DNA of 64,000 bases. It comes from Arctopsyche grandis. Its lineage: Eukaryota; Arthropoda; Insecta; Trichoptera; Hydropsychidae. Positions 2,654 through 62,386 of the stretch are shown here, piece after piece. Made by a program: the position numbers and the translations under genes. Positions within the stretch are counted from its first letter, which is position 1, and every line of letters begins with the position of its first letter. Location of the stretch: NCBI RefSeq assembly GCF_051622035.1, contig NC_135355.1, positions 3,472,001 through 3,536,000 of the forward strand, read 5' to 3'. The notes below the pieces were generated by a model. That model saw only the letters and a program-made list of their open reading frames with translations. It searched no databases and was not told the DNA's origin.

Positions 2654-2985
2654 ATCAAGTACAGAAATAATAATCATAGAGACATCTATGGATTATTTTT
2701 AGATTTTGTGCACAATTTTTATACACATAATAAACACGAAATTATAGAGATGTCTATAGATTTCAGATTACTGTGCATAATTTCTACAAATTATAGGAAA
2801 TGATCTATAACCAATTTTCAGGAATCGTTTCAACAATGATCATATAAAATTGGCAAACTCTGATAGAGAAACGATCGATTTGGAGTCACAAAACCCCCAA
2901 ATCTAACCAGCAGTTTGACGACTCGAACCATCGTTCTCAGTGGTGCTAAATATATACGCTACCATTAAGCCAAACTGCTGGCTAA
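2654..2985 (-). mobile_element. tRNA-derived SINE, family A
   Basis: Read on the minus strand, the head at 2907-2981 has an A box (TGGCTTAATGGTAGCG) and a B box (GGTTCGACTC), the two internal RNA polymerase III promoter elements of tRNA genes. The head begins CCAGCAGTTTG and ends with its exact complement CAAACTGCTGG, an acceptor-like stem. A body of about 250 bp follows, carrying the core shared with two other SINE families here. The 3' end of the SINE meets the tail of the Jockey-like element. The same family recurs at 13454-13945 and in pieces at 12347-12992. Confidence 0.85.
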
Positions 2986-3037
2986 ATTATATGTAGGAAT
3001 CCCTGTCTCTCACAAGACAGGGATTCCTACATATAAT
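2986..3037. repeat. Perfect 23-bp stem, 6-nt loop hairpin
   Basis: The 23-base arm at 2986-3008 and the arm at 3015-3037 are exact reverse complements around the loop CTCACA. The core of the stem is GTAGGAATCCCTGTCT. It lies immediately upstream of the SINE head. It could be a tiny foldback element or a recent palindromic duplication. The sequence gives no evidence that it is transcribed. Confidence 0.85.
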
Positions 3038-60100: not shown

Positions 60101-62386
60101 TTGTTAATAATCAATGATTTTTTAAAATTATTTAACGTTTCCTTGATACCAAGAAAGCTTTCCATTCATTGATGAAAATCCAAAATTCGCGTTTTTTGCT
60201 CCGGCCGGCAACATACCTCAATGATTAGCGTATAGTGCTTACAACCGAAGGATCACAGATTCGAGCCCTGGCCTGGCGGTGTTGTTGGCCTGACCTAGCT
60301 CCAGGTCAAGTTTCTATCAGAGTTTGCCAACTTATCTGATTTAATTGTTGAAACGGTTCCTCACCAATTTGGCCACCTACCCTCTATAGTTTATAAGGTG
60401 CATGCAAATTATATTATTAAAAAAATGGCAAAAAAAGTTGGTGTATTTTGTAGGTTAAGAAATTTATATTAAGTATAAAAAGTAAAATATTAATATATAA
60501 TTGTATTTCAAGGCCTCATACTGTATATTGCGCTACATTGCTCGATCTATTTATTGGATTGTGTATTGATAAACTGCAGAAAGTGCAGAATAGGGTAATG
60601 CGTGCAATTTTTAATGTGAGGAAACGTAAGAATGTCAATAGTATGTTAGATGAATTGAAATGGTCGGATATTAGAAATAGTCTTAGCTTAAGCACTATAA
60701 AATTTGTATATAAGCTAGATAAGAATCTATTTCCCAAATATTTTAATAATCATACTGGATACCCGAAACCTTAATTTAGTTGCCGTTCCTTTCTTAGATA
60801 TATATATATATATATATATATATATATATATATATATATATATATATATATATATATATATATATATATATATATATATATATATATATATTGAGTGAAT
60901 GCGACAATATATATCAATATATTATATTTAGTGAATGCGACAGTTGCGCCTCGACCAGATAAAACCTATGTTAAATCGACAAAATCGAGGTTTCGTATTC
61001 TCCAGTTTGCTCAACTAGAAACTAGACCAATTTAAAAAAAAGTTTCATCATCGGTATGAGAAAGATATTTTCTATGTTTGTGTTTTTTTATTTTTTTTTA
61101 AATCAACCGTTAAATTAGCACACTGACTCTTTTCGTGGGTGTAAAAACGAAGCGATTTTATATATGTTTGGTGGCTCCTAGCTAGCTCCTATAAAAAATA
61201 ACTATTCAAAAAAATAAAAACATAGAAACATGCCTATGGTAGATATCCATAGAATATTAAAAGATAATTTCTCTAGTACCATAATTGAGGAAGGGAGACG
61301 TGTAATACGTTTGTATGGACAAGGCGTTATATTATATTATTTTAGTATTACTAATTATAGTTTTGTCAAATTTTGTTAACTATGTTATATTATAGTTGTT
61401 AGTTTAAGTTTAAAATTGTTAATTGTGAAATTGTGAAATAGTTCATTAGCAATTTGCTATTTAATACTAATAAATATATAAATAAATATGTATATACAAC
61501 TTTGGCCATAGGTGCCGCATTGTAATGGAACCTGATAAATAAAAAAATCATGACTATCACGATTGAATGTATTAAATTTTGTTTGTATTTGCAGTGGTTT
61601 CGCATATTGTTTTACTTGTCATGGCCAATGATGATTTGTGTCTTATTTAGTGGAGGCCTTTTCCTCAATGACGACTACGTTTATGACCCTATAATCTCTG
61701 GCGTATACGTATCTCTCCACAGACCCGTATTTGCTTTCTTTGCAATGACTTTTATTCTAGGAGCTATTCACAAATGCTACAGTAAGCATATAGTCCTTAT
61801 ACAATATTAGCAAAAAATAAAATATTAATATATGCACATTGTTTGTAATTTACAACAGATATTTCGAGAGGATTTTTGGAATGGGACGGTTTCCAATTGT
61901 TTAGTAAATTTTCGTATTGCGTTTATGTAATACATTACATGGTGCAAAGGTATTCCAGTGGATTTTTTTATCAGCCATATCATATTGCATTTTACAATTT
62001 CGTAAGTACATATTTTTGTATTCATTCATATTTAAATTGTAAATATTTAATTGAAACATCTGCAAATCCATGACACGTTTTATGCACTATTATAAAGTTG
62101 AAAAAATAGTAGATATTTAAATTTTTATTAGTTGATCAACAATTTGCGATCACGGTAAAACAAAATATGTGATTTTATATATGTATGTACATATGTATGT
62201 TTGCAGTGTATGTTAATCTTGGGAAACTTTTTGTTGATCTACTGCATATCACCTGTATTATATTTACTTGTTGAATTACCTTCTCGAAATCTGCAACAAA
62301 TGATATTTAAAAAGAAAATACCAGAAATCACAAAAGAAGAAGAGGAAAATAAAACGGAAGACGTAGTGTCTGTTGGCGTGGAATAA
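51167..62386 (+). CDS. nrf-6-like membrane acyltransferase, gene 2, intact
   Basis: Eleven exons: 51167-51233, 51374-51513, 51986-52334, 53913-54109, 55076-55245, 55388-55573, 56848-57024, 57384-57534, 61595-61781, 61859-62001 and 62207-62386. They total 1947 nt (648 codons plus TAA), every intron is GT-AG and every phase closes, so no break is seen. A signal peptide (1-17) precedes a luminal/extracellular Cys-containing NRF domain (to about 150; DPYEECF, GGIYCVIDV). The first helix is near 152-176 (WVYIAIILGILIMSGI). The acyltransferase-3 domain has KAIDGLRF (about 214) with a conserved His in LVLYHS, RLTPVYAVVLGF, GSGPLW (about 329), CRILWWTHLIYLNNY, WYLAADMQLF (about 370) and FLEWDGF. The C terminus is an acidic/Lys tail. 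Length fits the family. An AATAAA is at 62496-62501. Introns 3, 4 and 8 are full of transposons. Substrate is unknown; NRF proteins act in lipid or xenobiotic handling. Confidence 0.88.
52360..52935 (+). pseudogene. Jockey-like RT C-terminal fragment in intron 3
   Basis: The reading SVSDCEVLQSNLNSLWSWA, then LPFSISKCHILSF, KKDLGITFESRWK and FLRYLYMREFGYYP is the post-catalytic part of an RT close to the element at 34020-38236 (which has FLRFLYRKEYGYYP). It starts within about 30 bp of the donor of intron 3 and ends where MITE M1 begins. Confidence 0.85.
52936..53314. mobile_element. MITE family M1, long-hairpin form
   Basis: Here the two halves are inverted repeats over about 180 bp, so the whole element folds into one hairpin. 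The centre is GGCAAGATTCG, loop, CGAATCTTGCC (about 53117-53147). Ends are GGATTCGGTGCATCCGCTC and, reverse-complemented, GGGTTTGGTGCATCCGCTC. I see no target duplication. Confidence 0.85.
53320..53510 (+). repeat. Interspersed repeat R1, single copy
   Basis: CATAATATCGCTATTCTG, TATGTACGTCACAGTT, CACTGCCAACAAAACGTACG and TATATACTGCTTGCTACC follow the order seen at 6565-6790 plus 7370-7450. It lies in intron 3 of nrf-6-like gene 2. Confidence 0.65.
54205..55070 (+). pseudogene. CR1/L2-like RT end, abutting the exon 5 acceptor
   Basis: The final RT codons can be read around a nested MITE: RLKRINLTTLETRR then IRVFKTLNNHYKC and FFSNRVVSIWNGLPNDSV, stop at 54877. A 3' UTR and an ATAAATAAATAAAATAAA tail follow, which stops about 7 bp before the AG at 55074-55075. 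The element's tail thus forms most of the upstream region of the 3' splice site of intron 4. Confidence 0.8.
54280..54606. mobile_element. MITE family M1, 327 bp, nested in the CR1-like fragment
   Basis: GGGTTTGGTGCATCCGCTC on the left, GCGGATGCACCGCATCC on the right. GACGAGAAG is duplicated (54271-54279 and 54607-54615). Removing the MITE and one duplicate restores the RT reading frame (TLETRRIRVF), which fixes both boundaries. Confidence 0.92.
55640..56045 (+). repeat. Interspersed repeat R1 with downstream part
   Basis: ATAATATCACTATTCTGTCT, a (GT)n run, CTATAATAGTCGTTTCGAT and CACTGCCAACAAAATGTACG, then TAGCGCCATCTATTG and ATCGAACACAGGACTG. This copy joins the parts seen apart at 6565 and 7370, so it may be close to full length. 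It lies in intron 6. Confidence 0.65.
56400..56650 (-). repeat. Interspersed repeat R1, inverted copy
   Basis: Reverse complement of the same series: TGGTAGCAAACAGTATATA, GTACATTTTGCTGGCAGTG, AACGACTATTATACC and CGAGCGTTATCGC. It forms a wide inverted pair with the copy at 55640-56045 in the same intron. Confidence 0.65.
57580..57708. mobile_element. 129-bp MITE with 40-bp arms
   Basis: CGGGTTGACACGATGCGAGT and, reverse-complemented from the right end, CCGGGATGACACGATACGAG. The arms continue through AGCTTGGA and AAGTAA. A second, inner hairpin (GGTTCCATCC and GGATGG) fills the centre. It lies 45 bp into intron 8. A worn relative is at about 29250-29306 in gene 1. Confidence 0.78.
57780..58165. 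repeat. AATTATTAATTA minisatellite
   Basis: Short degenerate units of 12-20 bp made of AATTAATTATTATAATT-like words repeat for almost 400 bp and shift to TTAATTGATTATA units at the right. Nearly pure A and T. It lies in intron 8 of gene 2. Confidence 0.85.
58227..58404. mobile_element. hAT MITE, 178 bp
   Basis: Ends are CAGTGGCGGACTGGCCATAC and, reverse-complemented, CAGTGGCGGACTGGGATTG. CATATATG (8 bp) is duplicated at 58219-58226 and 58405-58412. It has no coding capacity. One end of the same family is stranded at 12909-12938. Confidence 0.9.
59600..59965 (-). pseudogene. Jockey-clade RT C-terminal fragment
   Basis: On the minus strand: SNIEKMQRCQNQFLRII, YRFVTNEEIHKDLKI and HPNIEALQLLD, then RRLKRNKPHEL and a stop at 59615. 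This is the usual end of Jockey ORF2. No catalytic part remains. Flanking DNA (59300-59600 and 59940-59990) shares words with 63000-63340, for example AATTAAAATCTGA and GAAAATGATCGGA. Confidence 0.82.
60195..60425 (+). mobile_element. tRNA-derived SINE, family C
   Basis: The head starts GGCCGGCAACA, has an A box-like TACCTCAATGATTAGCGTA and a B box AGATTCGAGCCC, and closes with TGTTGTTGGCC, which pairs with the first 11 bases if two G-U pairs are allowed. The core at about 60309-60375 (TTTCTATCAGAGTTTGCCAA, TTGTTGAAACGGTTCCT) is that of families A and B. It lies in intron 8 of nrf-6-like gene 2. Confidence 0.75.
60500..60776 (+). pseudogene. Non-LTR RT C-terminal fragment
   Basis: The ORF at 60538-60774 reads DKLQKVQNRVMRAIFNVRK then MLDELKWSDIRNSLSL and TIKFVYKLDKNLFPKYF, the end of a CR1/L2-like RT. 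Upstream codons are degenerate. (AT)n follows. Confidence 0.7.
60798..60890. repeat. (AT)n microsatellite in intron 8
   Basis: About 92 bp of AT repeat. Its right edge (TGAGTGAATGCGACAATATA) is where homology with the gutted copy at 19231 starts, so the repeat marks the breakpoint of the duplication. Confidence 0.93.

Follow-up and report, generated by a model that had tools for sequence, protein, structure and literature searches.

Families of short interspersed elements (SINEs) that share a conserved central domain, and 3′ stem-loops that SINEs have in common with long interspersed elements (LINEs), are both well known. In the accessible descriptions, the CORE, V, Deu, Ceph, Nin, Inv, Pln, Snail, and Meta superfamilies each bring together SINE families of different origin around one central domain, as do the elements reported here, and exchange of modules has been proposed for conserved-domain SINEs (the consulted parts of PMC6887750 and PMC8010984). 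Insect SINEs with tRNA heads include HaSE1 and HaSE2 of Helicoverpa armigera and PxSE1 and PxSE2 of Plutella, which are described as sharing a central domain (62 or 44-45 bp; PMC3272025, PMC8010984), and SmaI/HAmo likewise combines a tRNA head, a central region, and a LINE-like 3′ stem-loop (PMC2653535). Maturation as a tRNA would sever the head of a tRNA-derived SINE RNA from its body, and in that last account an irregular acceptor stem was proposed as the way out for SmaI/HAmo. The elements described here were found in a 64,000-bp stretch of the genome of the trichopteran Arctopsyche grandis (C1:3472001-3536000, hereafter the window); the genome comprises 475,669,232 bases (475.7 Mb) in 189 contigs. 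They have promoter-like boxes, a head closed by a stem, a conserved domain, a LINE-like tail, and thousands of genomic copies.

A preliminary description, made from the letters of the window, had named four SINE copies, A1 and A2 (family A), B, and C, all of which exist where it placed them, although A1 and B sit on the minus strand and a third family A copy, A3, detected by blastn, had been missed. In the family consensuses the element starts with AG or AA (GG in the lone copy C) followed by CCAGCAGNN, and the A box comes immediately afterwards, at what corresponds to tRNA position 8; NNCTGCTGG sits behind the B box and is followed by a homologous linker and then by the core. Box-like A and B sequences at tRNA spacing in nine heads predict an internal RNA polymerase III (Pol III) promoter. 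The head is closed by a stem of 9 bp, consisting of 7 acceptor pairs and two outer C-G pairs that lie beyond tRNA positions 1 and 72, and seven of the pairs are nearly constant (CCAGCAG/CTGCTGG). The complementarities reported earlier for A, B, and C are exact as written, and the stems do pair, but those of A and B share 7 bp and differ at pairs 8 and 9 only; the stem of C is a divergent form of the same stem (CCGGCAACA/TGTTGTTGG). When strands were shuffled in the three copies so analyzed, a stem as good arose by chance in 0 of 3000 trials for A2 and with P values of 0.003 for B and 0.0023 for C.

Between the strands of the stem, the interior varied from 47 to 127 nt (98 copies), with lineages D and F holding about 45 nt extra between the B box and the 3′ stem strand. 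The folds predicted for lineages E1, E2, and E3 have the A box paired to the stretch just 3′ of the B box, forming a rod; in E2, for example, CTAGTGG pairs with CCACTAG. The stem nevertheless stays paired across interiors that differ at about half of their sites. The closing stem was present in all nine minimum-energy folds computed for the heads (seven consensuses of 3-11 copies, plus E2 and C as single copies), which had been offered as the check on the proposed fold, and its mean pair probability exceeded 0.5 in 59 of 66 copies. Canonical pairs filled 92% of the nine-pair stem cells in the 98 copies, compared with 10-60% when the partner was slid by 1-3 positions. Pairs 10 and 11 were considered as further members of the stem and rejected, being canonical in only 65% and 38%, respectively.

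Selection on pairing was examined in copies gathered in three ways. A profile built from the four window cores added 17 copies from 210 kb of C1 (copies in 9 of 21 loci), 78 stretches were read around strict core matches (60 + 18), and a further 40 copies were chosen by head pattern alone (20 each of lineages E and F), giving 139 copies with the 21 profile matches. Both stem strands were placed in 98 of these (66/99 in the first set and 32/40 in the second) by a rule that allowed up to 2 mismatches to each 7-mer and used an A-box score in the first set, and allowed 3 and 2 mismatches in the second; some of the 41 copies that failed it are plainly truncated (e.g., L148, L149, and L151). The null model followed R-scape without being R-scape itself: the tree was built from non-stem columns, and substitutions were shuffled over columns for each branch.

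Two inner pairs varied while mostly remaining paired. Among the 98 copies, pair 8 was CG in 46, TA in 27, TG in 11, AT in 4, and other in 10, and pair 9 was AT in 49, GC in 14, GT in 9, TA in 8, and other in 18. Against the tree null, double changes with pairing gave P values of 3.6e-4 for pair 8 and 0.002 for pair 9, and the G statistic gave 0.0056 and 0.013, respectively. The first 66 copies behaved similarly (double change, 0.9-2.1e-4 for pair 8 and 0.0041-0.0050 for pair 9; G statistic, 0.0024 and 0.012). Counted on branches, changes on both sides that preserved pairing numbered 8-9 where 2.9-3.0 were expected (P = 0.0005-0.0047). These results lend moderate support to selection on pairing; the support is strongest at pairs 8 and 9, and the near-constant seven lie beyond the reach of the test. 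The earlier suggestion of selection on the fold thus holds to a moderate degree, backed by these two pairs and the nine folds, and not by the count of coincident changes considered below.

The conserved block common to A, B, and C was longer than the 65 bp initially given: in alignments and blastn it takes in TGACTCCARRTCGATCG, TATCAGAGTTTGCCAA, and TTGAAACGGTTCC in turn and ends at or near AATTTGGC; because it starts at TGACTCCARRTCGATCG, it includes the linker ahead of the core as first drawn. A strict core pattern had 10,088 matches in the genome (5024 on the plus strand and 5064 on the minus strand) and none in a reversed control, and head patterns matched 1336 E heads and 970 F heads at ≤3 mismatches. 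These counts show the high copy number and dispersal expected of a SINE, and a single central domain runs across families that differ in heads or tails, as in a conserved-domain superfamily. Nested insertion of one family into another, which had been raised as an explanation that would undo the shared core, was rejected on the regular spacing of stem and core: the distance from the 3′ stem strand to the start of the core is 39-54 nt in 66 of 72 copies (those among 81 in which a script placed both ends). A pseudoknot or second hairpin in the core (ATCAGAG/CTCTGAT, or TTTGCCAATTTT with downstream AAAATTGGCAAA) was also dropped, the second helix having no consistent compensation as judged by eye, without statistics, in 21 copies that had not been selected by core sequence. 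Scans of IMG/VR with three core patterns gave 0 matches each, a scan of the contig collection with a 16-mer gave at least 120 stretches in prokaryote records that were taken as chance, and a text search of the literature for core words returned no SINE paper by title. Two further observations concern genomic copies: a small tandem array at G000:C4:33979830-33981200 has six exact E-type heads, all oriented alike and spaced 186-379 bp apart, and at L163 the 5′ flank of the SINE includes TACCACTAAGCCAAACAG, which closely resembles the inverted form of part of that element's initial 25 bases.

The tails carry one of two hairpins, T1 (GTACACTCGTC/GACGAGTGTAC, with variants) or T2 (CCAGGAAGGC/GCCTTCCTGG), whose loops are similar (GCATTGGRG or nearly so). 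Over the 274 kb that was searched, all 6 T1 matches and 6 of 14 T2 matches stood behind a SINE core. Two of the other eight T2 matches followed reverse-transcriptase frames, at L138 279-2226 and L139 3723-5625, with RVT_1 E values of 1.1e-24 and 7.6e-22, and a third, at L141, seems to stand behind a copy of that LINE into which another LINE is inserted. T2 is thus a 3′ tail that SINE copies have in common with a putative partner LINE, and it had 4980 matches genome-wide at ≤3 mismatches (0 in the reversed control). No LINE carrying T1 was found in the 274 kb. One E3 copy ends in T1 and another in T2, so tails have probably been exchanged. Between the T2-LINE piece and its T2 tail at L141 lies a 996-amino-acid frame with endonuclease and reverse-transcriptase domains (3746-6736, minus strand).

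The explanation that best fits these features, held with about even confidence, is a conserved-domain SINE superfamily with tRNA promoters in which the clamped head would block tRNA end-processing. The two outer C-G pairs occupy the place of the pre-tRNA leader and trailer. Pol III would start at the AG or AA just outside the stem, so that the 5′ end of the RNA would be paired; pairing of leader with trailer would disfavor cuts by RNase P and RNase Z, so that head and body would remain joined, and the enzyme of the partner LINE would copy the SINE RNA starting at the 3′ hairpin. The proposed block draws on the accessible account of RNase P inhibition by extensive leader-trailer pairing (PMC9705548) and on the opposite proposal for SmaI/HAmo (PMC2653535). 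A more specific version, in which the acceptor stem is perfect and lengthened two bp past the tRNA ends expressly as a leader-trailer clamp that prevents end-processing by both enzymes, this clamp being the selected constant of the head and the interior (tRNA-like body, A-box/B-box rods, or inserts) being freely rebuilt or exchanged, is more doubtful.

Several observations weigh against a selected, processing-blocking stem. Changes on both sides of a pair, counted regardless of pairing, were not significantly in excess (10 observed versus about 6.5 expected; P = 0.06-0.10), pairs 1-7 barely vary (G-statistic P ≥ 0.098), and correction over nine pairs raises the G values to about 0.05 for pair 8 and about 0.12 for pair 9. 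Admitting copies by their closeness to two 7-mers inflates pairing at pairs 1-7, with 41 of 139 copies excluded. In subfamily A2 (T/C) and some members of E2 (G/A), pair 9 does not form. The outer C-G pairs, on which the block would depend, have one pairing-preserving double change (pair 1, in the single copy L269) and no statistical covariation. The predicted Pol III transcription could be ended before the tail by runs of 4-5 T inside the head or core of 8 of 9 sequences (those of families A1, A2, A3, D1, D2, E1, E2, and E3). A weak test of 11 copies, 4 of which had misplaced 5′ ends, revealed no target-site duplications (longest common flank word, 7.8 for own flanks versus 7.5 for swapped ones).

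The strongest rival, quite possible although we lean slightly against it, is that SINEs have traded whole head interiors while stem and core stayed fixed. Mean mismatch between the interiors of A or D and those of E was 0.46-0.57, compared with 0.19-0.29 in the linker and core, and between A and D it was 0.44-0.51, compared with 0.17-0.20, implying that the core outlasts the interior. Among 38 distinct tRNA interiors (His, Pro, Gln, Leu, Trp, Asn, Asp, and Gly being absent from the set), Glu was nearest for E1, E2, and E3, and the occurrence of T1 or T2 on E3 copies likewise suits exchange. The Glu assignments (z = 9.1, 9.1, and 7.1, respectively) nevertheless fall below z = 10.1, the 95% level for pairs of tRNAs that differ in isotype (with iMet and Met treated as separate isotypes), as does the nearest match of D1 (Ala, z = 9.0 in one comparison and 10.0 in another). 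A3, L176, F, and D also form a chain of closer steps (mismatch, 0.29-0.31; z = 9.6-10.5), so that A and D may need no swap; their membership of one head lineage is suggestive only, the z values lying around that same level. The three head-swapped families first proposed therefore become a family A that may join F and D through intermediates, a copy B that belongs to lineage E, and a lone copy C. The head of C has one genome match at ≤3 mismatches over 38 nt, with more diverged relatives possible beyond that threshold, and so C cannot be called a family. A replaced interior is possible in lineage E. Heads do not appear to have been exchanged whole, since all large families have the same closing stem.

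A recent tRNA origin, also suggested at the outset, was not supported, as no tRNA parent stands out and tRNA-model scores are low: the A heads align to RF00005 positions 1-71 at 14.1 and 15.6 bits, under the Rfam cut-off of 29, B and C had no match at E ≤ 10, with extra bases parting the T arm from the 3′ stem strand, and the window had no RF00005 match at the Rfam cut-off, that is, no tRNA gene by this model. In the iMet genes of this genome the acceptor begins with the same five pairs, AGCAG/CTGCT, as occur in the stem; initiator tRNA-Met was rejected as parent of the stem, its interiors being unsupportive and iMet standing outside the four best listed tRNAs for every head. The accompanying statement that SINE heads usually lose the acceptor stem was too general: in the consulted parts of the literature, published heads still fold or score as tRNAs (PMC3272025, PMC9191728), and some have irregular acceptor stems (PMC2653535).

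According to a second rival, the stem is a relic inherited from a few source elements, there is no selection on pairing, and the changed pairs are chance double changes. The near constancy of seven pairs, the nonsignificant excess of coincident changes, and the pair 9 G statistic of the first 66 copies, which corresponds to an E value of 0.11 over nine pairs, all suit such a relic; the pairing-preserving double changes at about three times their expected number, the variety of canonical types that pairs 8 and 9 show, and the persistence of the stem around such divergent interiors do not, and we consider a relic unlikely. That the stem is kept for resemblance to tRNA or for a tRNA-binding factor (La, an elongation factor, a synthetase, or the ribosome) rather than as a processing block is least probable of all, for although the covarying pairs correspond to acceptor pairs 6:67 and 7:66 with the A box as guide, and alignment of the A heads extends over the full tRNA model, if only at 14-16 bits, B and C lack such a match, the predicted E folds engage the A box in a rod, and D and F accommodate their extra bases within the stem.

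Table 1. SINE copies in the window and their parts (window coordinates)
Feature	Position	Strand	Evidence
SINE copy A1 (family A), 3′ end lost	2641..2983	-	blastn, 85.6-85.9% to A2
A1 closing stem, 5′ strand CCAGCAGTT	2973..2981	-	sequence; inverted repeat 2900-2917/2971-2988
A1 closing stem, 3′ strand AACTGCTGG	2907..2915	-	sequence; inverted repeat 2900-2917/2971-2988
A1 linker and conserved core	2811..2895	-	blastn, alignment, profile
SINE copy B (lineage E1)	9886..10077	-	tree groups B with L152, L155, L199, and L243
B closing stem, 5′ strand CCAGCAGAA	10067..10075	-	sequence
B closing stem, 3′ strand TTCTGCTGG	9996..10004	-	sequence
B linker and conserved core	9887..9980	-	blastn, alignment, profile
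SINE copy A3, 5′ part of head	12345..12389	+	blastn, 100% to A2 1-45
SINE copy A3, remaining head and linker	12939..12984	+	blastn, 100% to A2 56-101
SINE copy A2 (family A) with tail	13454..13945	+	sequence, blastn, profile
A2 closing stem, 5′ strand CCAGCAGTT	13456..13464	+	sequence; inverted repeat 13456-13466/13520-13530
A2 A box TGGCTTAATGG, directly after stem	13465..13475	+	sequence; tRNA model alignment
A2 B box GGTTCGACTCG	13508..13518	+	sequence; tRNA model alignment
A2 closing stem, 3′ strand AACTGCTGG	13522..13530	+	sequence; inverted repeat 13456-13466/13520-13530
A2 linker and conserved core	13542..13629	+	blastn, alignment, profile
A2 tail hairpin T1 (GTACACTCGTC/GACGAGTGTAC) and A-rich tail	13870..13944	+	tail search
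SINE-like copy C, lone copy	60203..60425	+	sequence; profile; genome head search
C stem, 5′ strand GGCCGGCAACA	60203..60213	+	sequence; fold
C stem, 3′ strand TGTTGTTGGCC	60280..60290	+	sequence; fold
C conserved core	60299..60382	+	blastn, alignment, profile

The surroundings of the window copies had features of their own. Copy A1 adjoins a LINE copy (1-2637) at its (AAATA)n tail. The same LINE stretch recurs at 43244-45885 with 99.5% identity over 2642 bp, suggesting recent activity or a duplication. Immediately next to the 5′ end of A1, a perfect 23-nt inverted repeat with a 6-nt loop (2986-3037) matched the Rfam mir-145 model at 25.3 bits, under the cut-off of 50, and a receptor-like frame at 3390-4343 had no Pfam match. 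Behind its 3′ stem strand, copy B repeats its B-box region in inverted form (9983-9999/10006-10022; 17 nt, 94%), which looks like a private fold-back event because copies L152 and L155 lack it. The two parts of A3 are separated by 549 bp, and A2 positions 46-55 have no counterpart in it; the insert (12390-12938) has CAGTGGCG at its start and again, in the same orientation, about 30 bp before its end. Judged by eye, A3 stops ahead of a reverse-transcriptase-like fragment.

Compared with the described systems, the covarying closing stem is the feature that would set these SINEs apart: it is absent from the accessible published definitions of conserved-domain SINEs. Searches of mostly open-access literature on acceptor stems, initiator tRNA, leader-trailer pairing, and conserved domains yielded no description of an over-extended, covarying SINE acceptor stem. 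The heads of the HaSE and PxSE elements are, by their descriptions, nearly identical (95.7% and 93.4%), whereas the heads here differ at up to half of their sites. As in UnaL2/UnaSINE1, a stringent-type pair in the consulted account (PMC5135761), SINE and LINE have in common a 3′ stem-loop together with short repeats; here T1 stood on SINEs only in the 274 kb searched, and recognition of T2 by the LINE is putative. The acceptor stem of SmaI/HAmo is described as irregular and was proposed to escape 3′ cleavage (PMC2653535), whereas the stem here is regular and over-extended. A paired, over-long stem with compensatory changes, carried in thousands of copies, would be the opposite answer to that of SmaI/HAmo with the same end, and one open to testing with genomic copies, by RNA-seq, and in vitro. 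The superfamily also distinguishes the conserved parts of the head, the two promoter boxes and the closing stem, from the parts that are free to change.

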